Source: Ewingella americana ATCC 33852 (lineage in GTDB: Bacteria > Pseudomonadota > Gammaproteobacteria > Enterobacterales > Enterobacteriaceae). From it: DNA of 64,000 nucleotides. Below the pieces are notes generated by a model. That model saw nothing but the letters and a program-made list of their open reading frames with translations. It ran no database searches and was not told the DNA's origin. Positions 1,978-27,498 of the stretch are shown here, one piece after another. The stretch lies in assembly GCF_000735345.1 (NCBI RefSeq), contig NZ_JMPJ01000067.1, positions 55,312-119,311 of the forward strand. The letters are read 5' to 3'. Within the stretch, counting starts at the first letter, position 1. Each line of letters opens with the position of its first letter. Position numbers and translations under genes: made by a program.

Positions 1978-3125
1978 TACCATTCGGCGACCGAGCCATC
2001 CTCATACCGCCACACCGGATTGCGCCAATCGGGAGCCTGCTTGCTGCGTTCAATTACCAGTTCTTCATTGATAACCACACCCAGCCCCGGCTTCGACGGC
2101 GGCAGGAAGAACGCCCCTTCCATCGAGAAATCCTCTTTATTGACCACGTAGTCGAGCAATTCAGCGCCCTGATTGTAGTGGATGCCCATGCTCTGCTCCT
2201 GAAACACCGCATTGCGGGAAACAAAGTCGACGTGCAGGCAAGCCGCCAGCGCGATAGGTCCCAGCGGACAGTGCGGCGCGAGGGTGACGTCATAAGCTTC
2301 GGCCATCGCGGCGATTTTGTAGCACTCGGTGATGCCCCCGGCGTGGGAGAGATCGGGCTGTAAGATTGCCAATCCGCCCTGCTCTAGCACGCGTTTAAAC
2401 TCGAAGCGCGAATACATGCGCTCACCGGCGGCAATCGGGATGTGGGTTTGCGCGGCCAGCCGCGGGTAATATTCCGCCTGCTCGGCTAGAACCGGCTCTT
2501 CAATAAACAGCGGGCGATAAGGCTCCAGCTCTTTGATCAGCACTTTTGCCATTGGCGCATTCACCCGGCCATGGAAATCCAGACCAAACTCAATGCTGTT
2601 GCCGAAGGCTTCGCGGATTTGCGCCACCACGGCGACCGTGGCGTCGATTTTGCGCGAACTGTCGATAAGTCCCATCTCTTCGCAGCCATTGAGCTTGAAG
2701 GTGTCGAAGCCAATGCCCTGCAATTTACGAATCCCTTCAATCACTTCCGCCGGGCGGTCGCCGCCCACCCAGCTATAAGCCTTGATTTTATCTCGCACTA
2801 AACCGCCAAGCAGCTGATAGACCGGCACGCCGAGCGCCTTGCCCTTGATGTCCCACAGCGCCTGATCGATACCGGAAATAGCACTCATCAAAATAGGGCC
2901 GCCGCGATAAAAACCGCCGCGATACAGGGTTTGCCAAATATCGTTGATGCGCGCCGGGTCTTGGCCAATCAGGTATTCGCTCAGCTCGTGTACCGCAGCC
3001 TCTACGCTGCGGGCGCGGCCTTCAATTACCGGCTCGCCCCAGCCGCTGATGCCTTCGTCGGTGTCGACTTTCAAAAACATCCAGCGCGGTGCCAGACGGT
3101 AAGTGGTCAGTTTGGTAATTTTCAT
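1977..3125 (-). CDS. dgoD: D-galactonate dehydratase
   Basis: Converts D-galactonate to 2-dehydro-3-deoxy-D-galactonate, the first committed step of the De Ley-Doudoroff galactonate pathway in the cytosol. The 382 residues equal the E. coli length and are highly similar from [11 protein letters not shown] to the C-terminal DGSVAEW. Enolase-superfamily catalytic positions are present: Mg ligands D183, E209 and E235, and the bases H185 (GLDFHGR) and H285 (LAPHCPLGP). Start ATG overlaps the dgoA stop by 4 nt (ATGA), implying translational coupling. The stop codon borders an ERIC repeat. Confidence 0.97.
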
Positions 3126-13452: not shown

Positions 13453-13812
13453 GTGGTTAAGCTCGCTTTTCCCAGGGAGTTACGTTTGTTAACTCCCCGT
13501 CATTTCACTTTCGTCTTCCAGCAGCCACAACGGGCTGGCACGCCGCAAATCACTATACTCGGCCGCCTGAACGAGCTGGGGCATCCCCGCATGGGTCTCA
13601 CCGTTGCAAAAAAACACGTCAAACGCGCTCATGAGCGTAACCGGATAAAGCGCCTAACCCGCGAAAGCTTCCGGCTACTTCAGCACAAGCTGCCTTCGAT
13701 GGATTTTGTGGTAGTGGCTAAAAAGGGTGTCGCCGATCTAGATAATCGTGCATTGACGGAAGCGTTGGAGAAATTATGGCGTCGACATTGCCGGCAGGCT
13801 CCCGCATCCTGA
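13453..13812 (+). CDS. rnpA: Ribonuclease P protein component
   Basis: 119-residue basic protein that assists RNase P RNA in processing tRNA 5' ends. Begins [21 protein letters not shown] from a GTG at 13453, like E. coli, and contains the family signature [17 protein letters not shown]. Lies 18 nt after rpmH. Its last 37 nt overlap yidD in another frame. Confidence 0.97.
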
Positions 13813-14033
13813 TCGGGTTGATACGTGGTTATCAGCTTTTTATCAGTCCCTTGCTTGGGCCACATTGTCGTTTTCGACCAACCTGCTCTCAATACGGTAT
13901 TGAGGCCATTGGTCGTTTTGGCATGTTAAAAGGCAGTTGGTTGACATTGAAACGCGTATTAAAATGCCATCCTTTGAACCCAGGTGGTGATGACCCCGTG
14001 CCGCCGAAAACCGACAATAACAGAGAACTCTAA
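13776..14033 (+). CDS. yidD: Membrane protein insertion efficiency factor YidD
   Basis: 85 residues. Contains the three conserved cysteines of the family in [15 protein letters not shown] and [15 protein letters not shown]. Peripheral inner-membrane protein with an N-terminal amphipathic helix, thought to help YidC-dependent insertion. Starts 37 nt inside rnpA and ends 2 nt before yidC, so all three are likely cotranslated. Confidence 0.95.
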
Positions 14034-14035
14034 CG

Positions 14036-15670
14036 ATGGATTCGCAACGCAATCTCTTTCTCATCGCTCTGCTGTTCGTGTCTTTCATGATCTGGCAGGC
14101 CTGGCAGACGGACCACGCTCCGCAGCCAGCCAATCAGACCACGCAACAGACTGCGAATACTGCTAACGGCGATGCTGCTAACCAGGCTGTTCCTGGCAGC
14201 GGACAGGGCAAAATGATCACCGTCAACACTGACGTGCTGTCATTGAGCATCAACACCCGTGGCGGTGACATTGATCAGGCTTTACTGACTGCTTACCCAA
14301 CGTCTCTGGGTTCAAGCGAACCATTCCAGCTTCTGGAAACCACTCCTAATTTCGTCTATCAGGCTCAAAGCGGTCTGACGGGCAAAAACGGCCCAGACAA
14401 CCCGGCTAACGGCGAACGTCCTCTGTATCAAGCAAGTCAGGACAACTTCACCTTAGGCGAAGGTCAGGCTGAACTGCGTATCCCTCTGACTTATACCGCT
14501 CAGAACGGCGCAGTGATCACCAAAACTTTCGTTATCAAGCGCGGTTCTTACGCGGTGAATGTTGAGTACAACATCAACAACACCACGGCTACCCCACTTG
14601 AAATGACGCTGTTTGGCCAGTTGCGCCAAACCACCGAGCTGCCTAAGCACAGAGATACCGGGAGCAATAACTTTGCCCTGCATACTTTCCGTGGCGCAGC
14701 TTACTCGTCTAGCGATGACAAATATCAGAAGTACGCGTTCGATAAGAGCGAAGCGCTGAACGTCACCACTCAGGGCGGTTGGGTTGCCATGTTGCAGCAG
14801 TACTTTGCAACGGCGTGGATCCCATCAGCGAAAGACACCAACAACTTCTACACCACGACCAATAACGGCATTTCCGCTGTTGGCTTCAAAGGTGCACCTT
14901 TTGTTGTTCAAGCTGGCGCGCAGCAACAAGTGGCTTCTACCCTGTGGGTAGGTCCAGAGATTCAGGATCAAATGGCCGCCATCGCGCCGCACCTTGACCT
15001 GACTGTTGACTACGGCTGGTTGTGGTTCATTTCTCAGCCACTGTTCAAACTGTTGAAGTTCATTCACGGTTTCATCGGTAACTGGGGCTTCTCCATCATC
15101 ATCATCACCTTTATTGTTCGCGGTATCATGTATCCACTGACCCGCGCTCAGTACACGTCGATGGCGAAAATGCGTATGCTGCAGCCGAAACTGGCCGCGA
15201 TGCGTGAACGCATTGGTGATGACAAACAGCGCATGAGTCAGGAGATGATGGCGCTGTATAAAGCAGAGAAAGTGAACCCGTTGGGTGGCTGTCTGCCGCT
15301 GGTTATCCAGATGCCAATCTTCCTGGCACTGTATTACATGCTGTCTGGCTCCATTGAATTGCGCCACGCGCCGTTCGCCCTTTGGATCCATGACCTGTCA
15401 GCGCAAGACCCGTACTACATTCTGCCGATCTTGATGGGTATCACGATGTTCTTCATTCAGAAGATGTCGCCGACTACCGTCACAGACCCAATGCAGCAGA
15501 AGATCATGACCTTCATGCCGGTCATCTTCACCGTGTTCTTCCTGTGGTTCCCATCTGGTCTGGTGCTGTACTACATCGTCAGTAACTTGGTTACCATTCT
15601 CCAGCAGCAGCTGATTTATCGCGGGCTGGAAAAACGTGGTCTGCACAGCCGCGACAAGAAAAAATCATAA
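14036..15670 (+). CDS. yidC: Membrane protein insertase YidC
   Basis: 544 residues (E. coli 548). One N-terminal membrane segment ([16 protein letters not shown]), a large periplasmic beta domain from about residue 25 to 335, then five C-terminal membrane segments with the positively charged loop containing [25 protein letters not shown] and the catalytic-groove arginine at [15 protein letters not shown]. Inserts inner-membrane proteins alone or with SecYEG, including ATP synthase subunit c encoded in this window. Start ATG follows GAGAACTCTAACG. Confidence 0.97.
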
Positions 15671-15739
15671 GTCAGTCTCAGGGGCTTCCGGCCCCTGAAA
15701 TGCAAATCTTGTGAAATTCTGAGCTTGTGTAATTAACAG

Positions 15740-15765
15740 AAAAGGCGATCATTTGATCGCCTTTT
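15740..15765. terminator. Terminator-like hairpin between yidC and mnmE
   Basis: AAAAGGCGATCA-tt-TGATCGCCTTTT, 12-bp perfect stem ending in four T. A second GC-rich hairpin (CAGGGGC...GCCCCTG) without a T tract lies at 15676-15696. Sits 27 nt before mnmE, so read-through or a promoter within the hairpin region must serve mnmE. Confidence 0.55.
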
Positions 15766-15792
15766 GTACATTCAAAACAGAGATAATTCGCT

Positions 15793-17157
15793 ATGAGCAC
15801 CTCAGATACCATTGTTGCCCAAGCCACGCCTCCCGGCCGCGGCGGAGTCGGCATTCTGCGCGTTTCCGGCCGCGCGGCGAGCCAGATTGCGCAGGAGATC
15901 TTAGGTAAGCTGCCCAAGCCGCGCTACGCCGACTATCTTCCCTTCCGCGACGTGGACGGCTCGACGCTCGACCAAGGCATCGCGCTGTGGTTCCCCGGCC
16001 CCAACTCCTTCACCGGCGAAGACGTGCTGGAGCTGCAAGGCCACGGTGGCCCGGTGATCCTCGATTTGCTGCTTAAGCGTATTATCTCGCTGGACGGTGT
16101 GCGCATTGCGCGTCCGGGCGAGTTCTCTGAGCGCGCCTTCCTCAATGACAAGCTGGACTTGGCGCAGGCCGAGGCCATTGCTGACCTGATTGACGCCAGC
16201 TCCGAGCAGGCCGCGCGTTCGGCGGTGAACTCCCTTCAGGGCGCATTTTCCAACCGTGTTCATCATTTGGTGGAAGCACTTACTCACCTGCGAATCTTTG
16301 TGGAAGCGGCTATCGACTTCCCGGATGAGGAAATCGACTTCCTGTCTGACGGCAAAATTGAAGCCCAGCTCAATACGGTGATCGGCGACCTTGATGCCGT
16401 GCGTGCCGAAGCGCGTCAGGGCAGCCTGCTGCGTGAAGGGATGAAAGTGGTGATAGCCGGCCGTCCAAACGCTGGAAAATCTAGCTTGCTCAATGCGTTA
16501 GCGGGGCGCGAGGCGGCCATTGTCACCGACATCGCCGGTACCACGCGTGACGTGCTGCGCGAGCACATTCACCTCGACGGCATGCCGTTGCACATCATTG
16601 ACACCGCCGGTCTGCGCGAAGCCAGTGACGAAGTTGAGCGAATTGGTATCGAACGTGCATGGAATGAGATCGAACAGGCCGACTTAGTGCTGTTTATGGT
16701 TGATGGCACCACCACCGACGCTACCGAGCCTGCGCAAATTTGGCCGGAGTTTATGGCCCGTCTGCCAGAGACATTGCCGATTGTGGTGGTGCGCAATAAG
16801 GCCGATATCACAGGTGAAACGCTGGGCATGACCGAAGTGAATGGTCACTCACTTATTCGCCTTTCGGCGCGCACCGGCGACGGCGTAGACCTGCTGCGTG
16901 AGCATCTGAAACAGGTTATGGGCTTCAATCACAATATGGAAGGGGGCTTCCTCGCCCGCCGCCGTCACTTGCAGGCGCTGGAACTGGCGGCTGAACACCT
17001 GATCCGCGGTAAAGACCAGCTTATAGGCGCGCGCGCCGGGGAGTTACTGGCAGAAGAGCTGCGCATGTCGCAGCAGGCGCTGAGTGAAATTACTGGGGAA
17101 TTTACCTCGGATGACCTGCTTGGGCGCATTTTCTCCAGCTTCTGTATCGGAAAATAA
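15793..17157 (+). CDS. mnmE: tRNA-5-carboxymethylaminomethyl-uridine synthesis GTPase MnmE
   Basis: 454 residues, the E. coli length. N-terminal folate-binding domain ([22 protein letters not shown]), central helical domain and G domain with G1 [15 protein letters not shown]3 DTAGLRE, G4 RNKAD and the C-terminal FCIGK whose cysteine is essential. With MnmG, also encoded in this window, it modifies the wobble uridine of several tRNAs. ATG follows the motif AGAGATAATTCGCT. Confidence 0.98.
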
Positions 17158-17190
17158 GCCAGAAACGCGATAAGTTTGTAAGTGAACACT

Positions 17191-17224
17191 AACCGCATTA
17201 ACTCTTTGTTAATGCGGTTTTTTT
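17191..17224 (+). terminator. Intrinsic terminator of mnmE
   Basis: AACCGCATTAAC-tcttt-GTTAATGCGGTT followed by seven or more T residues. Its T tract overlaps the last codon region of the convergent LysR gene. Confidence 0.9.
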
Positions 17225-18140
17225 ATGCCTGCGCGATGGCCGGTATAGGCAAATTTTCACTCAACCAGAAGTGATCCACCTCGGCCTGTAACCAGTCGCG
17301 GAAGTAACCCACCCGCGGTAAGTCGCGCTTTCCGGAGGGGATCTCCAGCCAGTAGCCGTTGCTGCTCTCAAGGTCGAGTGCCGACACCGGCACCAGCAGC
17401 CCGCTGCGCAGCTCGTTGCGGATCATCATCAGGTCCAACACCGCGTAGCCCGCGCCGGTGACGCAGGCGTTAATCACCTGATCTTCAGTGCTGAACTCCA
17501 GCCCGCAGGAGAGTTTGCTTTCGCACAGCCCCGCCGCCTCCAGCCAGCGTGGCCAGTTGTCCAGCCGGGTTTCGCCATTAAGAATATGCAGCTGCGGTTG
17601 GGCGTCGATTGGCGGGAAATTCCCCCCAATCATCATCAACGGGCTGGCTACCAGCATCAGCCGCTCGTGGCACAACCACTCTCCGCGCCCTTCGCTTTCC
17701 GCCCGGCTGCCAAAACGCACCGCGCAGTCAAAATCACAATATTGTTGCCGTGCTTCGCTGATCAGTGCGATTTGCAGCTGGCTATTGCGCTGGCGCAGGG
17801 CCACCAGCCTCGGGGCCAGCCAGCGCGTGGCGAAGGTAGGCGCGACCTGTAAACGCAAATGCTGTAGCGGGTTACGCAGCTGAATGTGGCACACCCCTTC
17901 CTCAAGAATATCCAGCGACTGCCGCACAATAGGCAGCAGCAGCATGGCGTCCTGCGTCAAAGCCAATCCACTGTAGCTGCGCACAAACAGCAGCTTGCCG
18001 AGGAAGTCCTCCAGTTGCTTAGTCTGGCGGCTGGCGGCGCTCTGGGTAATGCACAGCGCCTGTGCCGCTTTGCTAAAACTCAGCGTCCGACACGTTTCCT
18101 CAAAGACCCGCAACATACTGAGCGATGGGAGTTTTCTCAC
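17223..18140 (-). CDS. LysR-type regulator (GcvA-like), probable controller of the adjacent Fae-family operon
   Basis: 305 residues. N-terminal winged helix: LSMLRVFEETCRTLSFSKAAQALCITQSAASRQTKQLEDFLG, residues 7-48. The effector domain has the GcvA-branch hallmark CDFDCAVRFGS and ends near RVGYFRDWLQAEVDHF. Divergent from the MFS-fae-AKR-ALDH operon with 242 bp between, the classical arrangement for a LysR activator and its target. The effector is unknown; by context it would be the operon's substrate or an intermediate. I do not recognise an orthologue with a known role. Confidence 0.85.
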   Translation of the reverse strand: MRKLPSLSMLRVFEETCRTLSFSKAAQALCITQSAASRQTKQLEDFLGKLLFVRSYSGLALTQDAMLLLPIVRQSLDILEEGVCHIQLRNPLQHLRLQVAPTFATRWLAPRLVALRQRNSQLQIALISEARQQYCDFDCAVRFGSRAESEGRGEWLCHERLMLVASPLMMIGGNFPPIDAQPQLHILNGETRLDNWPRWLEAAGLCESKLSCGLEFSTEDQVINACVTGAGYAVLDLMMIRNELRSGLLVPVSALDLESSNGYWLEIPSGKRDLPRVGYFRDWLQAEVDHFWLSENLPIPAIAQA

Positions 18141-18382
18141 AATCCGACTGGCCTCTCACAATGCAACTATGCGTTACCTATATGTTGCTAATTTGGTACA
18201 TAACGCTAGCCCTCGTCGCCTCTATTTCTACAAAACCGGAAGCCGATCACATGCGTTTTTGAGGGAGGGGTATGACTAAAACGCACTCGCTTAAACGGAG
18301 GGTTTACTGCCACATTGTTAACACGTAAGAAACATAAAAATTACAATAACCCTACAACATCCACCTCAGCGGAGGACGTGCA
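18141..18382. promoter_or_regulatory. Divergent LysR/MFS control region
   Basis: Shared 242-bp intergenic region. Two nested inverted repeats stand out: GCGTTA at 18171-18176 with TAACGC at 18201-18206, and GCAAC at 18164-18168 with GTTGC at 18184-18188. They are plausible LysR-binding half sites in the region close to the regulator gene, but no consensus T-N11-A site can be singled out. The MFS start has a strong GGAGG nine bases upstream. Confidence 0.45.
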
Positions 18383-19744
18383 ATGTCCCATCTGACGCAG
18401 CAGTACACTCGAATGGATGACGTGCCGTTAAATCGTTTCCATATCAAAATCGCCGGGCTGACCTTCGGCGCTCACTTCACCGACGGCTATGTGCTCGGGG
18501 TGATTGGCTTCGCTCTGGCGCAAATTAAGCCGCAAATGGGCATTACGCCCTTTTGGGAAGGCATGCTCGGCAGTTCAGCCCTGATCGGCCTGTTCCTCGG
18601 CAGTCTGGTTCTCGGTTGGATCTCCGATTATGTCGGCCGCCAGAAGATCTTCTGCTTCAGCTTCGTGGTGATCACCCTCGCCTCCGCGCTGCAATTCTTC
18701 GCCACCACGCCGGAGCAACTGTTCCTGCTGCGCGTGCTGGTCGGCATCGGCCTTGGCGGTGATTTCTCGGTCGGCCACACCATGCTGGCGGAGTTCTCCC
18801 CGCGCAAACATCGCGGCGTGCTGCTCGGCTCCTTCAGCGTGATCTGGACGTTCGGCTACGTGGCGGCGGGGTTTGCCGGGCATTTCCTCACCATGTTGGG
18901 TCCCGACGCGTGGCGCTGGCTGCTCTCCTCTTCGGCCCTGCCCGCCTTCATCATTCTGCTGATGCGTATCGGCACGCCGGAGTCCCCGCGCTGGCTGATG
19001 GGCAAGGGGCGGCGTGACCAAGCGATGGCCATCGTGCATAAATATTTTGGCCCCAACGTGCTGCTGGTCGACGAAGCGCCAGTGGCTTCTCGCCAACGCT
19101 TCCTGTCACTCTTCGGCCCGAAATATCGCCGCCGCACCGCCTTCAACAGTCTGTTCTTCGTCTGTCTGGTGATCCCGTACTTTGCTATCTACACCTTCTT
19201 GCCGTCGATTTTGCAGGTGATGGGGCTGGACACCAACTTCACCACCGACCTGCTGCTCAATGGCCTGCTGATTGTCGGCGCGCTGCTGGGGATAGCCCTC
19301 ACCGTGGTCTGCTCGCGCCGGGGTTTCCTGATTGGCTCCTTTATCTTCCTCGCCGCCTGTCTGGTGATGCTCAGCATCATTCCGGTTCATCAATCCGGCT
19401 GGCTGATCCTGTTCTTTGCCGCCTTCACCTTGGTGATGTCGGCGGTCAGTAATCTGGTCGGAGTCTTCCCGGCAGAAAGCTTCCCGACCGAAGTGCGCTC
19501 AATGGGTGTCGGCTTCGCCACCTCGATGAGCCGTCTCGGCTCGGCTATCGGCACCGGCCTGCTGCCACTGGCCATCATGCATTACGGCATGCCTGCCACC
19601 ACCGGACTGCTTGCGGTGGTGCTGATCATCGGCGCCATTGTCTCTATCGCCTGGGCGCCGGAAACCAAAGGGTTAAGTCTGGTAGACGCCGCCCAAGACT
19701 CGGCTCGACGCGCTGCACACCCCGCGCCAGCCCCCGCTAAATAA
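18383..19744 (+). CDS. MFS transporter, sugar-porter/YaaU-like
   Basis: 453 residues, 12 predicted membrane segments. Motifs include DGYVLGVIGFAL in helix 1, GWISDYVGRQKIF (MFS motif A), RVLVGIGLGGDF, the PESPRWLMGKGR segment after helix 6 and APETKGLSL after helix 12, all typical of the sugar-porter branch and reading like E. coli YaaU, whose substrate is unknown. First gene of a four-gene operon; the next gene begins 26 nt downstream. Probably imports the compound handled by the Fae-family protein, aldo-keto reductase and aldehyde dehydrogenase. Ends in an Ala/Pro-rich cytoplasmic tail. Confidence 0.85.
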   Translation: MSHLTQQYTRMDDVPLNRFHIKIAGLTFGAHFTDGYVLGVIGFALAQIKPQMGITPFWEGMLGSSALIGLFLGSLVLGWISDYVGRQKIFCFSFVVITLASALQFFATTPEQLFLLRVLVGIGLGGDFSVGHTMLAEFSPRKHRGVLLGSFSVIWTFGYVAAGFAGHFLTMLGPDAWRWLLSSSALPAFIILLMRIGTPESPRWLMGKGRRDQAMAIVHKYFGPNVLLVDEAPVASRQRFLSLFGPKYRRRTAFNSLFFVCLVIPYFAIYTFLPSILQVMGLDTNFTTDLLLNGLLIVGALLGIALTVVCSRRGFLIGSFIFLAACLVMLSIIPVHQSGWLILFFAAFTLVMSAVSNLVGVFPAESFPTEVRSMGVGFATSMSRLGSAIGTGLLPLAIMHYGMPATTGLLAVVLIIGAIVSIAWAPETKGLSLVDAAQDSARRAAHPAPAPAK

Positions 19745-19770
19745 TGCCAATGCTCAATAGGAGAGATCTC

Positions 19771-20274
19771 GTGGAAATGTATATCGGAGAAGGTTTCGAA
19801 GGTAACGGCGTCAACGCCTCGCACATCAACATCATGATTGGCCCGCGCAATGGCGTGGTCGGTCAGGCTTTTTCGAGCAGCCTCGCATCGCCGAGTCAGG
19901 GCCACTGCCCCTTTATGGTGGTGATTAAGCCCAACGTTCCGGCCAAGCCAATGACGCTGTACGTCAACAAAGCCGAGATTAACGGCGAGCTGCACGGCAA
20001 CGCCACGTGGGGCGCGTCCCAAGCCGCGATCGCCAAAGCCGTGACTGAGGCGCTGCTCGACGGCACTCTGCCGCCCGAGGCAGAAGACAACTGGTGCATC
20101 GTCACCGCCAACTGGGTGAACCCCGGCTGCAATGACATCGACGAGGTTTACCACAACAACTATCGCGCCTGCCGTCAGGCCATTCGCGCCGCGATGGGCA
20201 AATTGCCGCAGCGCAGCCAGCTGGCCGACGCGCTGCCAGAGTTGGGCAACCCGTTCTACACCCCAAAAGCTTGA
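19771..20274 (+). CDS. Formaldehyde-activating-enzyme (Fae) family protein
   Basis: 167 residues, the usual Fae size. Matches to the family: YIGEGFEGNGVNASHINIMIGPRNG at the N terminus with the conserved histidine that acts as catalytic acid/base in methylotroph Fae, then MVVIKPNVPAKPMTLYVNKAEI, the WGASQAAIAKAV helix and the DGTLPPEAEDNWCIVTANWV strand. Classical Fae condenses formaldehyde with tetrahydromethanopterin in the cytosol. That cofactor is not known from Enterobacterales, so the reaction here may differ. GTG at 19771 sits 7 nt after AGGAG; the ATG two codons later is too far from it. Second gene of the operon, 10 nt before the aldo-keto reductase. Family call is confident, reaction is not. 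Confidence 0.8.
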   Translation: MEMYIGEGFEGNGVNASHINIMIGPRNGVVGQAFSSSLASPSQGHCPFMVVIKPNVPAKPMTLYVNKAEINGELHGNATWGASQAAIAKAVTEALLDGTLPPEAEDNWCIVTANWVNPGCNDIDEVYHNNYRACRQAIRAAMGKLPQRSQLADALPELGNPFYTPKA

Positions 20275-20284
20275 GGAGCTGAGC

Positions 20285-21328
20285 ATGGAATACATCAATC
20301 TGGGCCAGAGCGGCCTGAAAGTCTCCCGCCTGTGCCTCGGCACCATGAATATGGGAAGCAAACAGTGGAAGCCGTGGATCTTCGATGAAGCCCAGAGCGA
20401 GCCGCTGATCCGCCACGCGCTGGAGTCCGGTATTAACTTTATCGACCTTGCTGACTTCTACTCCAGCGGCGCGGGTGAAGAGGTGGTGGGCCGAGTTCTC
20501 AGCCGCATCGCCAATCGCGACGAGCTGGTGCTGACCACCAAAGTCGGCTACCCGATTGGGGCCGGGTTTAACAATCAGGGCCACTCGCGTAAACACATTA
20601 TGGAAAGCATCGACGCCAGCCTGAAACGCCTCGGCACCGATTATGTCGACATCTACATGCTGCACTATTTCGACGTCAACACGCCGATTGAAGAGACGTG
20701 GGCGGCAATGAACGACATCGTGCGCAGCGGCAAAGCGCGCTATGTCGGCGTCTCCACCATGTACACTTGGCAGTTGGCGAAAATCCTCTGGTGCTGCGAG
20801 CGCAACGGCTACGCCAAGCCAATCAACATGCAGCTTCAGCTCAACTGCGCCTACCGCGAAGAAGAGCGCGAGATGATCCCCTTCTGCCGCGATCAGGGGC
20901 TGGGCGTGTCAGTCTTCAGCCCGCTGGCGCGCGGCCTGCTGAGCTGCGACTTCAACTCAGTGCGCAACCAGACCGACTTCTTCACCCAAGAAATGTACGC
21001 CGACGGCACCTCGCGCAATGTCGCCCAGTCGGTCAGCCACGTCGCGCAGCTGCGTGAACTGCCTCCGGCGCAAATTGCTCAGGCGTGGGTGCTCAGCCAT
21101 CCGGGCGTGGACTGCATGCTGGTTGGCGCGGATTCGGTGCAGCAAATCGACAGCGCCATCGCCGCGCTCGATACCCCCATCAGCGCCGACGAGCGTTACG
21201 AGCTGGAGCGCAATTACACGCCGTGCGACGTGATCAACGATTACACCGCGGGGAAACGCATCGCGCGCGAAAGCCGGGCGGCAAATGGCTTATTTATGGA
21301 TAACTTAACCACAAGGAATATTGCATGA
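20285..21328 (+). CDS. Aldo-keto reductase
   Basis: 347 residues forming one (beta/alpha)8 barrel with the full catalytic tetrad: D54 and Y59 in NFIDLADFYSSG, K86 in TTKVGYP and H127 in MLHYFD. NADPH-dependent reduction of an aldehyde or ketone, or the reverse oxidation, is expected; it reads like the YajO/Tas-type aryl-alcohol dehydrogenase branch. The frame is open upstream into the fae gene, but the ATG at 20285 follows GAGGAGCTGAGC and starts the usual EYINLGQSGLKVSRLCLGTMN strand. Its stop overlaps the next gene by 4 nt. Confidence 0.88.
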   Translation: MEYINLGQSGLKVSRLCLGTMNMGSKQWKPWIFDEAQSEPLIRHALESGINFIDLADFYSSGAGEEVVGRVLSRIANRDELVLTTKVGYPIGAGFNNQGHSRKHIMESIDASLKRLGTDYVDIYMLHYFDVNTPIEETWAAMNDIVRSGKARYVGVSTMYTWQLAKILWCCERNGYAKPINMQLQLNCAYREEEREMIPFCRDQGLGVSVFSPLARGLLSCDFNSVRNQTDFFTQEMYADGTSRNVAQSVSHVAQLRELPPAQIAQAWVLSHPGVDCMLVGADSVQQIDSAIAALDTPISADERYELERNYTPCDVINDYTAGKRIARESRAANGLFMDNLTTRNIA

Positions 21329-22770
21329 GTGCTTATGACGCCCTGCTGCGCACCGGCTGGTACTACGACGGCCAATGGCGCGAGTCGGCCTCCCGCTACC
21401 CGGTGATCAACCCGGCGACCGAGGCCGTCGTGGCAGAAGTCGCTAACGCTGGCACAGCAGAAACCGAAGCTGCGATTGCCTCTGCCGCCGCCGCGCTGCC
21501 TGCATGGCGAGCGCAGACCGCCAAGGCGCGGGCGCAAATCCTGCAACGCTGGTTTTCGCTGATCATGGCGCATCAGGCCGAGTTGGCGGAGCTGATGGTG
21601 ACCGAGCAGGGCAAAGTGCTGGCCGAGGCCAGTGGCGAAGTCGCCTATGCCGCCAGCTTTATTGAGTGGTTTGCCGAAGAGGCCAAGCGCGCCAACGGCA
21701 AGACCATCCCTTCGCCAAAAGCTGGCAATCAAATTCTCACTTTTAAAGAGCCGGTTGGCGTGGTGGCGGCCATCACCCCGTGGAACTTCCCGCTGGCGAT
21801 GCTCACCCGCAAGCTAGGCCCGGCGCTGGCTGCGGGCTGTACCGCCGTCATCAAACCGGCCAATGAAACGCCGCTCTCGGCCTTCGCGCTGATTGTGTTG
21901 GCGGAGCAGGCTGGCGTGCCACCGGGAGTGATCAATGCCGTCACGGGCGACACTCCCGCCATTGGCAGCGCGCTAATGGCCAGCCCGCTGGTGCGCAAAA
22001 TCTCCTTCACCGGCTCGACGCCAACCGGCAAATTGTTGATGCGTCAGGCCGCCGACACGGTGAAAAAGCTCTCTCTTGAACTGGGTGGCAACGCGCCCTT
22101 TATCGTGTTTGACGATGCCGACCTTGATGCCGCCGTCGCCGGAGCCATGGCGGCAAAATTCCGCAATAGCGGCCAAACCTGCGTCTGCGTGAACCGTTTT
22201 TATGTGCAAGACGGCATTTATGAGCGTTTTGTGGAAAAACTGGCCGAAGCGGCGAGCAGCCTGAAAGTCGCGCCGGGCATGACCGACGGCGCGCAGCAGG
22301 GTCCGCTGATTCACGGCAAAGCCGTCGAGAAGGTGGAAGCGCATGTCAAAGACGCGTTGCAACACGGCGCGCGGCTGATGTGCGGCGGTGAACGCCACGC
22401 GCTGGGTGCCTCTTTCTTCCAACCCACGGTGCTGGCGGATGCCAAAGAAACCATGCTGCTAGCCCGCGAAGAGACCTTCGGCCCGCTAGCCGCCTGCTTC
22501 CGATTCAGCGAGGAGCAAGAAGTGATCGAACGCGCCAACGCCACGCCGTTCGGGCTGGCGGCCTATCTCTACACGCGCGACTTGGCGCGAGCATTCCGCG
22601 TTACGGCGGCCCTTGAGAGCGGCATGGTGGGCATCAACGAAGGGATTATTTCCACCGAAGTCGCGCCCTTCGGCGGCGTAAAAGAGTCAGGACTGGGCCG
22701 CGAAGGCTCGGACTGCGGGCTGGAGGAGTATCTGGAAACCAAATACGTCAATCTGGGCGGACTGCTGTAA
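21325..22770 (+). CDS. NAD(P)-dependent aldehyde dehydrogenase, succinate-semialdehyde dehydrogenase (GabD) type
   Basis: 481 residues, normal family length. Active-site residues are all present: N154 (TPWNFP), K177 (VIKPAN), E252 (LELGGN) and C286 (SGQTCVCVN). Oxidises an aldehyde to the acid. The sequence is of the GabD type, but substrate cannot be fixed from sequence, and its place in an operon with a Fae-family protein argues against assuming GABA catabolism. ATG at 21325 overlaps the preceding stop (ATGA). Followed by a hairpin that closes the operon. Confidence 0.88.
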   Translation: MSAYDALLRTGWYYDGQWRESASRYPVINPATEAVVAEVANAGTAETEAAIASAAAALPAWRAQTAKARAQILQRWFSLIMAHQAELAELMVTEQGKVLAEASGEVAYAASFIEWFAEEAKRANGKTIPSPKAGNQILTFKEPVGVVAAITPWNFPLAMLTRKLGPALAAGCTAVIKPANETPLSAFALIVLAEQAGVPPGVINAVTGDTPAIGSALMASPLVRKISFTGSTPTGKLLMRQAADTVKKLSLELGGNAPFIVFDDADLDAAVAGAMAAKFRNSGQTCVCVNRFYVQDGIYERFVEKLAEAASSLKVAPGMTDGAQQGPLIHGKAVEKVEAHVKDALQHGARLMCGGERHALGASFFQPTVLADAKETMLLAREETFGPLAACFRFSEEQEVIERANATPFGLAAYLYTRDLARAFRVTAALESGMVGINEGIISTEVAPFGGVKESGLGREGSDCGLEEYLETKYVNLGGLL

Positions 22771-22791
22771 CTCACTTCATCTCAATAAAAA

Positions 22792-22828
22792 CAGAAACCC
22801 GCGCTCACTCTGGTGACGCGGGTTTCTG
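22792..22828 (+). terminator. Terminator hairpin of the Fae-family operon
   Basis: CAGAAACCCGCG and CGCGGGTTTCTG form a perfect 12-bp stem around a loop that can pair further (TCACTCTGGTGA). The T tract afterwards is weak, so termination may be partial. Confidence 0.6.
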
Positions 22829-22832
22829 CATT

Positions 22833-23089
22833 TCAGCCTTTAAAAAGTCTATTTATGAGCCTTTTCGAGAAAATAAAACCTATAAAGCTCACTTAAGAGC
22901 CACGGAGTACTGTAAGTGTCAGATATGAGCTATTTGATATTTACGCTGGCCTTAAAAGTTCTTTTCTGAACCCTAATCAATTTAATTCATTGTATTTAAA
23001 TAAATTAATTCAGACGTCCAAACCACGCTCCAGTGCTACCACCAGCGTTTACGTCGTATGCAAACACTGGCGGCAGAACCTCTGCAAAG
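22833..23089. other. AT-rich spacer, no gene seen
   Basis: Intergenic DNA between the converging aldehyde dehydrogenase and cytochrome genes. Distinctly AT-rich (for example TTTAATTCATTGTATTTAAA near 22980). No convincing coding frame, terminator for the cytochrome gene or repeat was found. It may mark the edge of the accessory segment. Confidence 0.5.
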
Positions 23090-24376
23090 TTAGCCCTTAT
23101 CAGGCTCGGTCAGCTTACGCATGGCTTTAACCTGTGCGGCGCTGACCCTTTCGGCCTGATTTCCCCAGCCGTTGCGGATGAAGTTCACGACGTCGGCGAC
23201 TTCTTGATCTTCCAGTCGGTCGGCGAAGGCGGGCATTTTCGCCCCTTTGCCGGAGGTGACGGTGACCGGCGAGTGCGCGCCGCGCAGCACGATATTGATC
23301 ATTGATGACGGATCGGCGCTGACCACCACCGGGTTTTGCGCCAGCTGCGGATATTTGTTCTTTTCGCCCTGCCCGCTGGCTAAGTGGCAGTCGGCGCAGT
23401 TATCCATATAGAGCTGCGCGCCCGTGGCGGCGAGGTCGCCTTTCTCCAGCGCCTGCGCGGTGGCGCTGTTATTCACCTGAACCCTGAATTGACCGTCGGC
23501 AGGCAGCGATTTGAGATACACGGCAATAGCCTGCCGGTCGGCGTCGGTCAGGTATTGCGTGCTGTCCTGCACCACCTCGACCATCGAGCCAAAGGCGGTG
23601 CTTCGCGGCGTGTGGCCCTGCTGCAAGAACTGGGTGATATCGCCCTCGGTCCACTGCCCCAGCCCGGTGGTGGCGTCGCCGCGCAGGTTTGGCGCATGCC
23701 AGCCGTCCAAGGTGCCGCCGGAGAGATAGGCGCGATTGCCGTTATCCAAAGCTTTCTCTTGGAAGCCGACGCCGCGTGGCGTATGGCAGCTGCCACAGTG
23801 CCCCAACCCTTGAACCAGATAGGCTCCACGGTTCCAGTTGGCGGTCTGTTTCGGGTCGGAGTAGTAAGGCTTCTGTTGCAAAAATACTTGATTCCACACC
23901 GCCAGCGGCCAGCGAATGTTGAGCGGGAAAGGGATGTCGCTCGGCCGGTTGGTTTGTGCCACCGGCACGACCTGCTGGGTGAAGTAGAGGTAGAGGTCGC
24001 GGGTATCGCTGTCGGTGATTTTATTGAATGAAGGGTAAGGCATCGCCGGATACAAATGGTGGCCGTCTTGGGCAATGCCTTGACGCAGCGCCCGGCTGAA
24101 ATCCTGCTCGCTGTAACTCCCAATGCCGGTCAGTTTGTCCGGCGTGATATTGCTGGCATAGATGGCACCCACCGGCGTCATCATCTTCAAGCCACCGGCA
24201 AAAGGCTTGCCGCCCGGCGCGGTGTGGCAGGCGGCACAATCCCCGGCGCGCGCCAGATACTCGCCATGTTTAATCTGCGCGGCCACGTCGCTGTCGGCAT
24301 GGGCAGTCTGCACCAGCCCGTTGATTGCCATGGCGAGCCACAGCCCGTAAGACTTTATGGTTATTTTTCGCGTCAT
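23090..24376 (-). CDS. Three-haem cytochrome c, alcohol/gluconate dehydrogenase cytochrome subunit type
   Basis: 428 residues with a signal peptide (MTRKITIKSYGLWLAMAING...TAHA, cleavage about residue 27) and three haem-binding motifs: CAACH 47-51, CGSCH 194-198 and CADCH 327-331. This three-domain layout is that of the cytochrome subunit of membrane alcohol, gluconate or 2-ketogluconate dehydrogenases, which passes electrons from a periplasmic oxidation to ubiquinone. Methionine-containing stretches that could supply axial ligands follow each domain. No catalytic dehydrogenase subunit lies next to it, so its partner must be encoded elsewhere or be a different protein. Confidence 0.85.
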   Translation of the reverse strand: MTRKITIKSYGLWLAMAINGLVQTAHADSDVAAQIKHGEYLARAGDCAACHTAPGGKPFAGGLKMMTPVGAIYASNITPDKLTGIGSYSEQDFSRALRQGIAQDGHHLYPAMPYPSFNKITDSDTRDLYLYFTQQVVPVAQTNRPSDIPFPLNIRWPLAVWNQVFLQQKPYYSDPKQTANWNRGAYLVQGLGHCGSCHTPRGVGFQEKALDNGNRAYLSGGTLDGWHAPNLRGDATTGLGQWTEGDITQFLQQGHTPRSTAFGSMVEVVQDSTQYLTDADRQAIAVYLKSLPADGQFRVQVNNSATAQALEKGDLAATGAQLYMDNCADCHLASGQGEKNKYPQLAQNPVVVSADPSSMINIVLRGAHSPVTVTSGKGAKMPAFADRLEDQEVADVVNFIRNGWGNQAERVSAAQVKAMRKLTEPDKG

Positions 24377-24505
24377 CCGGAGGGTTACTTTGGGTCACAA
24401 TGAAAGGCTGACATTATGCCGCCGAGCGGGGCGAAAAATCACTCAATTCACGCCACGAATTAAGGCCAGATCGTAACCAAGGGTTTATGGCTGATTTTGA
24501 GCATG

Positions 24506-24532
24506 AAAAAAGCCCGGCGCACGGGCCGGGCT
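24506..24532 (-). terminator. Intrinsic terminator of the chemoreceptor gene
   Basis: Minus-strand AGCCCGGC-ccgtgc-GCCGGGCT followed by a run of T, 22 nt after the stop codon. Confidence 0.88.
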
Positions 24533-24553
24533 TGGGGGAAAGTCAGGTAAAAA

Positions 24554-26449
24554 TTAGAGTTTGAAGCCCGACACCACGGTTTCCAGTTGCAGGGTTTGCT
24601 CCTGCATAGCCTGCGCGGCGGCGGACACCTGCTCCACCAGCGCGGCGTTTTGCTGAGTGGTGTTATCAAGTTGGGTGATCGCCACATTCACCTGCTCAAT
24701 GCCCAGACTCTGCTCTTGGCTGGAAGACATGATTTCATTCATCAGCGTGGCAACGTTGTTCACCCCGGTCATCAGCTCATCCATGGTGCTGCCCGCCGTG
24801 GCGACCAACTGGCTGCCGGAGGTGATATCCGCCACCGAATCCTCAATCAGCTTTTTGATCTCACGGGCCGAAGTGGCGGAACGCTGCGCCAGACTGCGCA
24901 CTTCGGAGGCTACCACCGCGAATCCACGCCCCTGTTCACCCGCGCGCGCGGCTTCTACCGCGGCATTGAGTGCCAGAATGTTGGTCTGGAAGGCAATGCC
25001 GTCAATCACGCTGATGATGTCGACGATTTTCTTCGACGAGTGAGTGATAGACCCCATGGTGTCCACCACTTGGCGCACCACCCGCGTGCCTTTCTCGGCG
25101 ACGTTGGAGGCATCGCGCGCCAGCTGGTTGGCACTTTCCGCGTTGCCCGCGTTCTGTTTCACCGTGCTGGTCAGCTCTTCCATCGAGGCCGCCGTCTCTT
25201 CAATCGAGCTGGCCTGCTCCTCGGTTCGCGCCGAGAGATCTAGGTTACCGCTGGCAATCTGCCTCGACGCCGAGGCAATCGCCAGCGAGCTGTCGCCCAC
25301 CTGCTTAAGCAGCGACTGGAGGAAGTCGAGGAAGTTGTTGAAGCTGCTATTCACCGCGTTGAACTCAGGGCTACTGCTTTTTGGCAGGCGCTGGGTCAAG
25401 TCCGCACCACCGGCCGAAAGCTGGCTGATGTTGCGATTCAGCGCGGCGAGTTGGCGCATAAACAGCTTGATGCCGGCGATCAGTACAATCAACAGCAGCA
25501 GAACCATCGGGATCTGCACCAGACCGAGGCTGGCCAGAATGCTATGGGTGCGCTGCAACAGCTGGCTGGTTGGCATGTCGGTGGCGATATACCACGGCCC
25601 CTGAATGCGGCTCATAAACAGGGTGTGGCCGGTGCCGTCATTGTCATAATCCGACACCAGATTGCTGCTGTCTTTAATCTGGTCGAGGCTTTTTCTGATC
25701 TGCCCGGCCAATGCAGACTGGTCACCCAGCGAAGTCAGCTTCGGCAGCTTTTCATCGCCACTGTGGCTGGTGCCAACAATGGTGCCATCCTGCTGGACGA
25801 TATAAATCGTGCCGTGGACCTTTTTCTCCATATCAGCCACCAGCTGATTGAAGAAGCCCAGCGTGACGTCGATGGTCGCCACGCCCCACTGGTCAGCGCC
25901 TTTGTAAATCGCCATCGCACAGTTGGTGCGCGGCTGGGTGCTGGCATCGTCAAAATAGGCCGGAGCCCAGACACACTGGCCCTTTTCACCTTTCAACGCC
26001 CCGACGTACCACGACTGCTCGAAGTAGTTAGGCGACTCCGCGCTGTTCCAGAAGGTGTTTTCCGTCAGCTCATTGCTGCCGTTGCGGGCAAAGAAGGTGC
26101 TGAACTTCACTTTGGCCGGGTCGCGCTTGTTGGGCAGAGGCCAAATACCGCCGCCGAACACCGCGCTGTCGCCATACTGATCCACTAATGGCGGCAGAAG
26201 TTTGTCGATGGAGGCGCTGTCCATCTGCGCCACGCTCTGGGTAATGCTTCGAACCTGCGACTCAACTTTATTCAGGCGATCGTTGATAGCCACGGCAATA
26301 TCGTCAACCTGATTGGCGACTTGCGTGCTTTCAGCCTGTTTCAATTTAGGAGAGATAAACACCTGGATGACGATAAGCGTAACGATAACCAGCACAATAA
26401 AAAATAAGCTGATCAAGGCGATAAAGCGTGATTGCGTTGTTTTTAACAT
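24554..26449 (-). CDS. Methyl-accepting chemotaxis protein with periplasmic Cache-type sensor
   Basis: About 631 residues. First membrane segment near residues 9-30 ([20 protein letters not shown]), a periplasmic domain of about 290 residues reading as a double Cache fold ([33 protein letters not shown]), a second membrane segment ([15 protein letters not shown]), HAMP and a signalling domain. The signalling tip has the invariant [22 protein letters not shown]-type hairpin. It ends VVSGFKL and lacks the NWETF-like CheR/CheB tether. ATG at 26449 gives a basic N terminus before the first helix; GTG at 26464 is an alternative. Ligand unknown; Cache sensors often bind amino or organic acids. Confidence 0.9.
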
Positions 26450-26470
26450 TTTCGCGGTACTCACAGGCAA

Positions 26471-26772
26471 AGCAGCGAGAGCGCTGCTTAAGTACTAACG
26501 GCATTTTCTGGCGTTTCTTTATGTGCTGTTAGCAGATATATCTTGTAAGTCAGTTTCGTCCTCAGCACACCAGAACATCCTTCGGGCAGCGAAATTTGTT
26601 ATAAATAGGTTAATTACGTGACAACGCTCACCTTTAGGGAGTGGTAAGCGCATTTTTAAGCAGTGAAAATGCGATTAAAGGCGGTTTTTAAGCAGTTTTT
26701 AATGATTTCTCTTAATGTTATCCTTCCTTTCTTAATAGAAAATAAGCCGAACCATTAATCATGGAGTGAACA
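26471..26772. other. Divergent promoter region between the chemoreceptor gene and yieE
   Basis: 302-bp intergenic region with AT-rich stretches, including GATTAAAGGCGGTTTTTAAG and CAGTTTTTAATGATTTC, that could hold promoters in both directions. No operator or RNA gene was recognised. The CAGTGAAAATGCG/AAGGCGGT area has no stable hairpin. Confidence 0.4.
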
Positions 26773-27498
26773 ATGGCGTGCCATTTTGCTAAATGGGTTG
26801 CAGCGGAGCCTGAGCCGGATACTCACCGCCTTCCCCCAAACGTACTTTTATCGGCCAGAAGCCTTTCCGAAAAGCAGCGTAAACGTTTTCTCAGTGGCCG
26901 CGTGCTGCTGGCCGAAATGATGTTTTACCTGTATGGCATTACCGAACTGCCCGCGATCATTACCCTGCCTAGCGGCCGCCCGAGCTTTGAGTCGCAAAAC
27001 CTGCCTGATTTCAGTCTGGCTTACGCCGGAACCACGGTGGGGGTGATGTTGAGCAGCGAAGGCAAGGTTGGGCTGGATTTGGAAGTGATCCACGCCCGCA
27101 GCGCGTTAATTAATTCGCAGCAACAAGCCCAGCTGTCCGCCGTGGAGCAGACGTGGATCGCGCTGCAAAGCGACCCGGTGGAGTCGGCGCTTCAGCTGTG
27201 GTGTATTCGCCAAAGCATGCTGAAGCTGTCCGGGCTGACCGAGCACGGCGAGAAAAGCCTGAGCCTTAACCCGGCGTCGGGCCGCCTGCGTTCTGCCATC
27301 ACGCCTGAAGCTCAGGTGATGAGCGACATCGACGGCTCTCTGACCTGGGCCTGCGCGCACTCTCCGGCCATTGCCCGCCTGCTGTGCTGGCGATATTCCC
27401 CCGAAAGTGGTTTTACGCGCACCCAAACGCTCTCAATTCAACAGCAGCCCCACTCGCCGCATTTCATGAAGTTCACCAGCTTGCCTCCGGCGAAGTAG
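26773..27498 (+). CDS. yieE: 4'-phosphopantetheinyl transferase superfamily protein YieE
   Basis: 241 residues (E. coli YieE 249). Carries the transferase core: SGRPSFE near residue 75, the metal motif KVGLDLEVIH near residue 100 and a weakened W-x-x-K-E region, read here as WCIRQSMLKLSG near residue 145. Family members attach the phosphopantetheine arm of CoA to carrier proteins. The second motif normally reads (W/F)xxKEA; here the residues are IRQSMLK, so the KE pair is not conserved and activity is uncertain. Position next to yieF matches E. coli. Confidence 0.82.
   Translation: MACHFAKWVAAEPEPDTHRLPPNVLLSARSLSEKQRKRFLSGRVLLAEMMFYLYGITELPAIITLPSGRPSFESQNLPDFSLAYAGTTVGVMLSSEGKVGLDLEVIHARSALINSQQQAQLSAVEQTWIALQSDPVESALQLWCIRQSMLKLSGLTEHGEKSLSLNPASGRLRSAITPEAQVMSDIDGSLTWACAHSPAIARLLCWRYSPESGFTRTQTLSIQQQPHSPHFMKFTSLPPAK

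Follow-up and report, generated by a model that had tools for sequence, protein, structure and literature searches.

What does a formaldehyde-activating enzyme (Fae) do in an enteric bacterium in which markers of the tetrahydromethanopterin (H4MPT) pathway are not found? The question is raised by an operon of Ewingella americana ATCC 33852, located within a 64,000-nt stretch of contig NZ_JMPJ01000067.1 (assembly GCF_000735345.1, positions 55,312 to 119,311 of the forward strand). This whole stretch is called the window below, and coordinates refer to it. Four genes on the plus strand encode an MFS importer (18383–19744), a Fae-family protein of 167 aa (19771–20274), an aldo-keto reductase (AKR; 20285–21328) and an aldehyde dehydrogenase (ALDH; 21325–22770) of the succinate-semialdehyde dehydrogenase (SSADH) type; a LysR-family regulator gene (17223–18140, minus strand) is divergent from them. 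Comparison with related loci leads us to propose, tentatively, that the Fae-like protein acts without H4MPT and cleaves a substituted four-carbon (C4) aldehyde acid, taking the role of a beta-eliminating lyase in a module for a betaine-like or cationic C4-acid compound.

The earlier note on this DNA had presented the operon as a feature of one enteric bacterium. It is not peculiar to that bacterium: a scan with one genome per species returned 348 relatives, and PMC6372532 lists a Pseudomonas aeruginosa CR1 island, region RGP103, that shares Fae, ALDH and AKR with the window, differs by a listed gluconate dehydratase and is called 'aldehyde detoxification'. The best 80 of the 348 relatives comprise 18 loci of Enterobacterales and 62 of Pseudomonas or a Paucimonas metagenome-assembled genome. 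Fae, AKR and ALDH occur together in all 80, an association beyond chance, and an MFS gene is present in 74, with two of the six remaining loci ending too early to show it. The operon is real and widespread.

The third protein of the locus is a true member of the Fae family, as had been supposed. It scores 170.9 bits against PF08714 (E-value 2.7e-50, cut-off 27) and 140.1 bits against NCBIfam TIGR03126 (cut-off 118.05), and its predicted fold matches that of M. extorquens Fae (1y60) with a TM-score of 0.92 and an rmsd of 1.5 at 28% identity. The N-terminal catalytic-region histidine and the KPMTLYVNKAEI segment, both singled out in the earlier note, are kept: H18 aligns with the histidine of classical Fae (we take it to be His22 in M. 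extorquens numbering), and H18, N20, K59, T62, K67, T79, W80, Q84 and W115 are invariant in all 91 subfamily loci compared, the divergent G949 among them. The window protein shares with classical H4MPT-dependent Fae the family, the fold, this histidine and the K59/T62/K67/Q84 region. In contrast, six classical-type rows carry D20, M79, F80 and F115 where the module subfamily has N20, T79, W80 and W115. Catalytic-region residues kept, with neighbours changed subfamily-wide, would be as expected for a changed partner or substrate.

We placed the protein in a tree of 52 rows, among which there is no Fae of tested function and no named Fae2 or Fae3 sequence. The window protein belongs to a group of 22 rows from Gamma- and Betaproteobacteria (support 100/99), which is separate from 20 classical-type rows (99/100) and six others. 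The Fae proteins of Ensifer and of genome G823 join the 22-row set at 88/77. Those of Streptomyces clavuligerus, which deviates from the other subfamily members at positions 117–118, and of G949 form long branches of unsure place (p-AU 0.255 for a single clade of all 26 orphan rows). A profile of seven rows, including the window and G085, matched Fae in 22 of 398 genomes of a phylum sample, with module-type proteins scoring 293–319 bits and all others at most 138.6. The dN/dS of fae is 0.016–0.074 against five enterobacterial relatives, with dS near saturation; in each of these comparisons it is below the values for the MFS, ALDH and LysR genes and near that for the AKR gene. Against two Pseudomonas loci it is 0.186 and 0.203 (dS near saturation). 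In G949 the divergent fae (L126, 8980–9507) lies between urease accessory and amidase genes, and the subfamily may therefore have more than one job.

The second difference from classical Fae concerns the pathway. In the Ewingella genome (completeness 100) the Fae profile matches once, at the window gene, and neither Mch nor Ftr gives a match; mtdB and the H4MPT synthesis genes were outside this search. Judged by Mch and Ftr, the window protein is without the pathway of classical Fae, as the earlier note had anticipated. Among module genomes or records, Mch matches in one of 12 (two of them plasmid records, the rest genomes) and Ftr in one of 14, in both cases G624, a genome with three Fae matches, of which one is near its mch. 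The third difference is the company that the gene keeps, an operon of import, AKR and SSADH-type genes.

The AKR of this operon matches PF00248 (227.8 bits), and D54, Y59, K86 and H127, which we take to be the Asp-Tyr-Lys-His tetrad of aldo-keto reductases, are present in all 89 AKRs compared. The ALDH exceeds the cut-off of TIGR01780 (673.8 bits versus 646.35) and stays below that of the E. coli-type equivalog PRK11241 (682.6 bits versus 828). It has the catalytic residues C286 and E252 and also R162 and R280, presumably the carboxylate-binding arginine pair of SSADH; by score and residues, we assign it to the SSADH type. Of 90 ALDHs from Fae loci, all have R162 and 89 have R280. The sole R280 exception is the AldA-like enzyme of G823, and since this enzyme retains R162, that residue is not special to SSADH.

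The strongest pointer to the reaction comes from clusters in which Fae is replaced. A search of plasmids with the AKR gave 102 records at an E-value of 1e–80, of which 12 share 69% identity or more with the query, the next listed record being at 50%. Eight of the 12 carry Fae (Burkholderia and Caballeronia, the top of the plasmid Fae search). The other four, three from Ensifer adhaerens and one from Vibrio pelagius, have a lyase of the aspartase/fumarase superfamily instead, and their AKRs are 70–71% identical to that of the window. Annotation was inspected for one Ensifer record and for the Vibrio record. The Ensifer cluster (L155, 6039–10045) has the lyase beside ALDH, AKR, LysR and Dpp-type ABC importer genes; the Vibrio cluster (L156, 4804–10020) has lyase, ALDH, AKR and LysR genes, with a BCCT transporter gene set apart by a transposase gene. 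There is no annotated Fae in either inspected region (the chromosomes of these hosts were not searched), and a separate Ensifer plasmid record does carry Fae. The lyase scores below the curated cut-offs of named lyases and, at 1e–80, is found among plasmids in these four records only. Between Vibrio and Ensifer the ALDHs are 69% and the lyases 41% identical. The Ensifer ALDH is nearest to the betaine aldehyde dehydrogenase (BADH) model, at 456 bits against a cut-off of 668.6, and both lyase-cluster ALDHs are devoid of R162 and R280. The Ensifer importer is shared with Fae clusters as well: its binding protein has 76%, 70% and 58% identity to the counterparts in another Ensifer, G823 and Pseudomonas, respectively, and its ATPase is 60–73% identical to those of Fae clusters. 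The Vibrio BCCT is 43% identical to the BCCT of the Fae locus of G031.

These clusters resemble the window operon in the orthologous AKR, the LysR gene and importers known from Fae loci, and differ in having a lyase and a BADH-like ALDH where the window has Fae and an SSADH-type ALDH. The AKR thus appears to serve either pair of enzymes, as does the Dpp-type importer in Ensifer, and since R162 and R280 are kept in Fae loci and missing in lyase clusters, the ALDH type follows the partner. Most likely, to judge from gene content, the Fae reaction is a cleavage that replaces a lyase step. The import and aldehyde-handling catabolic design read earlier from the operon is supported. The role given there to the Fae-like protein, trapping, isomerising or condensing a small aldehyde, finds no support in that form, the aspartase-type lyase of the sister clusters pointing to cleavage.

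The importers offer hints about the substrate. The window MFS belongs to the Sugar_tr family of Pfam and stays below the cut-off of each of the 25 NCBIfam models listed; its best solved relatives are OCT1 (92 bits), the glucose transporter GlcP (83) and OCTN2 (74). In G031 a BCCT transporter gene lies between fae and the AKR gene (319 bits against the betaine BCCT model, cut-off 650). On a plasmid of S. clavuligerus an OsmF-like betaine ABC system (186 bits, cut-off 400) directly precedes fae (L008, 7968–8540), which is followed by genes for a beta-hydroxyacid dehydrogenase and an SSADH-like ALDH (527 bits, below the cut-off of 646). A Dpp-type ABC importer accompanies the Fae clusters of Ensifer, G823 and Pseudomonas; the Pseudomonas loci that have flanking sequence and no MFS gene (L042, L063, L065 and L090) encode a Dpp-type ABC ATPase, and many others have both importers. 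Because the importers vary in this way (OCT-like MFS, BCCT, betaine-type ABC, Dpp-type ABC), a betaine-like or cationic substrate is hinted at: three of the four kinds would suit such solutes, each a weak sign when taken alone.

We suggest the following scheme, in which the substrate class, the direction of the AKR, the elimination and its product are all points that we infer. The importer would take up a small compound, betaine-like or cationic, that is built on a four-carbon acid backbone, and the AKR, working as a dehydrogenase, would form a terminal aldehyde. The Fae-like protein would bind this aldehyde without H4MPT, and the amine or other substituent would leave by an acid-base elimination involving His18. 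The SSADH-type ALDH would then oxidise the leftover small acid semialdehyde to fumarate or a closely related dicarboxylate, which would enter central metabolism. Fae binds a small aldehyde beside an amine and has an acid-base histidine, so that elimination chemistry would be near to what its fold does. Aspartase/fumarase-superfamily lyases are known to give fumarate. In the lyase clusters the order would be the other one: the BADH-like ALDH would first oxidise the bulky substituted aldehyde, and the lyase would then expel the substituent from the dicarboxylate. On the Fae route the substituent would be lost while the compound is still an aldehyde, with acidic hydrogens adjoining the carbonyl. 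Read most simply, the swap means that the two enzyme pairs arrive at the same outcome through differently ordered steps.

Several observations weigh against this proposal. The lyase link comprises two lineages and four plasmid records, in whose hosts Fae was not searched for elsewhere; in the 398-genome phylum sample the lyase gave no match at 1e–120, a strict threshold given that the known lyases are 41% alike. The G823 locus has no SSADH-type ALDH, only the AldA-like one with R162 kept, S. clavuligerus has a reductase of the beta-hydroxyacid-dehydrogenase type in place of the AKR, and no AKR or ALDH gene was found near fae in G949. As to import, the MFS has the likeness to GlcP given above, the only models whose cut-offs the Dpp-type ATPase exceeds are those of nickel-, opine-, dipeptide- and ProV-type subunits, and among the rows listed no importer exceeds an NCBIfam cut-off for betaine or another quaternary-amine substrate. 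Finally, a sugar-acid-type module beside some Pseudomonas loci and those of G686 and G823 could mean a polyol or sugar-acid substrate.

The main rival reading builds on that last observation. According to it, a choline-dehydrogenase-like GMC enzyme, AldA and a dehydratase would make a 2-keto-3-deoxy acid, and Fae (as a C–C cleaving or dehydrating enzyme), AKR and SSADH would finish a sugar-acid or polyol route. Genes for LysR, an AldA-type ALDH and a mandelate-racemase-family dehydratase, related to galactonate dehydratase, do stand before or after the Fae module in G745 (Pseudomonas; L127), G744 (L128), G686 and G823, followed by the GMC gene in G745, G686 and G823, with a second MFS gene in G745, G744 and G686. 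The Sugar_tr membership of the window MFS and the gluconate dehydratase that PMC6372532 lists with Fae, ALDH and AKR are in line with such a route. However, of 16 module genomes examined, seven have an ortholog of the dehydratase (at least 84% identity); all seven enterobacterial genomes lack it, three of them having only a relative at 35% identity, and in G684 and G624 its gene is not on the contig of the module. It is thus dispensable for the module core. BCCT and betaine-type ABC importers also fit a sugar acid poorly. We consider the sugar-acid route rather unlikely, and the dehydratase, AldA and GMC module, once a candidate for the main substrate clue, was set back for want of an ortholog in those seven enterobacterial genomes. 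The role of the dehydratase may lie in cutting a larger conjugate of the module's substrate or in a sugar-acid route.

Some further observations concern this neighbouring module. It can be located at L127 12782–16844, at L125 1116–5428 and at L133 together with L130, with GMC in three of four cases. The top solved relatives (e.g. 4e4u) bear only superfamily names. Among the 62 Pseudomonas and Paucimonas loci, 37 have a porin-like gene (recognised by eye, with no Pfam or NCBIfam match) and 14 show the start of AldA, many loci ending before it. The window itself has a galactonate-dehydratase-like gene at 2043–3086 (minus strand), 35% identical to the Pseudomonas dehydratase and perhaps part of another sugar-acid operon.

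Returning to cleavage of a cationic C4 compound, the most specific substrate proposal is a guess, homoserine betaine (N,N,N-trimethylhomoserine), the head group of diacylglyceryl trimethylhomoserine (DGTS) betaine lipids. It would fit because it offers a terminal alcohol for the AKR, an amine beta to the resulting aldehyde, a C4 backbone and a match to betaine importers. Fae would split homoserine betaine aldehyde into trimethylamine and fumarate semialdehyde, replacing the lyase non-homologously, and the SSADH-type ALDH would give fumarate. In Pseudomonas, GMC, AldA and dehydratase would act beforehand on the head group of the lipid, breaking its glycerol ether into pyruvate and homoserine betaine. 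We regard this version as unlikely. A search of open-licence literature listed no paper on homoserine betaine catabolism.

Formaldehyde handling free of H4MPT, in which breakdown of the substrate would release formaldehyde and the Fae-like protein would load tetrahydrofolate or another amine with it, has family, fold and His18 on its side, all as in Fae. On the other hand, an SSADH-type ALDH with both arginines suits an acid semialdehyde rather than formaldehyde (given the carboxylate-binding role of the pair), no other one-carbon (C1) gene is among the five genes of the operon, the aspartase-type lyase swap fits nowhere in such a scheme, and the changes of D to N at 20, MF to TW at 79–80 and F to W at 115 speak against an unchanged pocket; we hold this reading to be quite unlikely. 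An unspecific aldehyde detoxification island, as the label in PMC6372532 has it for the CR1 region, would account for three aldehyde-related proteins, but is improbable with an importer gene adjoining the enzymes so regularly, a Dpp-type ABC in the four intact loci without MFS, and an ALDH of the SSADH type. An ordinary H4MPT-linked Fae with partner genes elsewhere or missed is hardly credible, since Mch and Ftr were found neither in the own genome nor in any searched module genome but G624, even though the protein passes the equivalog-domain cut-off of TIGR03126. Roles of Fae as an aldolase for 4-hydroxy-2-oxobutanoate and as a Weimberg-type dehydratase were dropped as unsupported. A ureidoglycolate-type carbinolamine lyase is unsupported too, the urease neighbours in G949 being the sole hint.

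The layout of the operon agrees with the earlier description of a LysR gene facing MFS, fae, AKR and ALDH genes in a single transcription unit with one closing hairpin. The MFS–fae gap is 26 nt and the fae–AKR gap 10 nt, the AKR and ALDH genes overlap by 4 nt, and a terminator-like hairpin at about 22792–22828 (plus strand) folds at –27.0 kcal/mol. The fae gene starts with GTG preceded by AGGAGA, with an alternative in-frame ATG at 19744. For the regulator, GcvA is the best-scoring NCBIfam model (below cut-off); a LysR-family gene is present in all 18 enterobacterial and in 52 of the 62 Pseudomonas/Paucimonas loci. A MAFFT alignment of 20 divergent intergenic regions (the window and 19 from Enterobacterales) revealed a conserved block, GATCACATGC...GGGTATGACTAAAACGCACTCG, in the divergent promoter region at 18245–18289, a candidate LysR operator. 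No Rfam element reached its gathering score in 13500–27000. The five genes look like a LysR-controlled, self-contained unit.

This unit is probably mobile, as gene contexts suggest. Fae profile matches are found in one of six genus genomes (its own) and in four of 394 genomes of the order, three of them above cut-off and the fourth a 22-bit fragment with three stops. In G001, of the same genus, the two flanking sequences (95% and 93% identical) lie 153 bp apart, against 5,792 bp (17225–23016) in the window. Four more members of the genus have mnmE and then, after roughly 0.1–1.2 kb, the cytochrome gene, with no Fae; the site is empty in all five. To the right of the module the window has a cytochrome c-like gene (23090–24376; haem motif seen by eye), which follows mnmE in the five other genus members. 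The closest operon, in Enterobacter sp. Ag1, is 82% identical over 5.5 kb of DNA, and no window flank aligns there; neighbouring genes vary among the enterobacterial hosts. GC content is 59% in the module, 53% to its left and 57% to its right, and the two edge stretches that were compared share no direct repeats of 10–20 bp. Movement of all five genes together, as one unit, would be the simplest account. Plain horizontal gain is likely; the gene contexts of Serratia sp. Ag1 and S. oryzae weigh against it. In Serratia sp. Ag1, one of the 18 enterobacterial loci (L014, 2–1158), mnmE ends about 5.3 kb away from the module, with a 52% relative of the window gene at 26773–27498 in between, so that old presence with later loss is possible; in S. 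oryzae (L016, 329–1030) a relative of the same gene is near the module as well. The stretch that follows mnmE could be a hotspot or the former home of the module. None of 5,426 complete E. coli genomes contained 80% of the fae–AKR stretch (of 5,259 partial matches, the five listed are yajO), and no relative was found among 24 viral pattern stretches.

Dimethylsulfoniopropionate (dddD) clusters combine LysR, a variable BCCT or ABC importer, a lyase, a reductase and an ALDH. They are like the module in layout only, with a different lyase and a CoA-acylating ALDH. The window protein resembles Fae2 and Fae3 of methylotrophs in being a Fae-family protein of unknown reaction, but those accompany a canonical fae1 in a methylotroph, unlike the window Fae; in Methyloversatilis, methylamine induces Fae3, and strains mutated in fae2 or fae3 alone match the wild type in growth (PMC5023235). 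A study of choline use in Roseobacter states that fae is lacking there (PMC4744692), PMC5209427 deals with glutathione-dependent Gfa, off target for this gene set, and PMC12238654 cites M. extorquens and is likewise off target. We found no functional study of this gene set in open-licence literature; one may be in print elsewhere.

Public records label proteins of this subfamily 'formaldehyde-activating enzyme', and this label may mislead metabolic models, since most of the searched hosts have no H4MPT marker match. The lyase swap beside the same AKR and importer renders the Fae-like reaction directly testable. Overall, the Fae fold could gain a role outside C1 metabolism, in the breakdown of betaine-like compounds in Pseudomonas and Enterobacterales.

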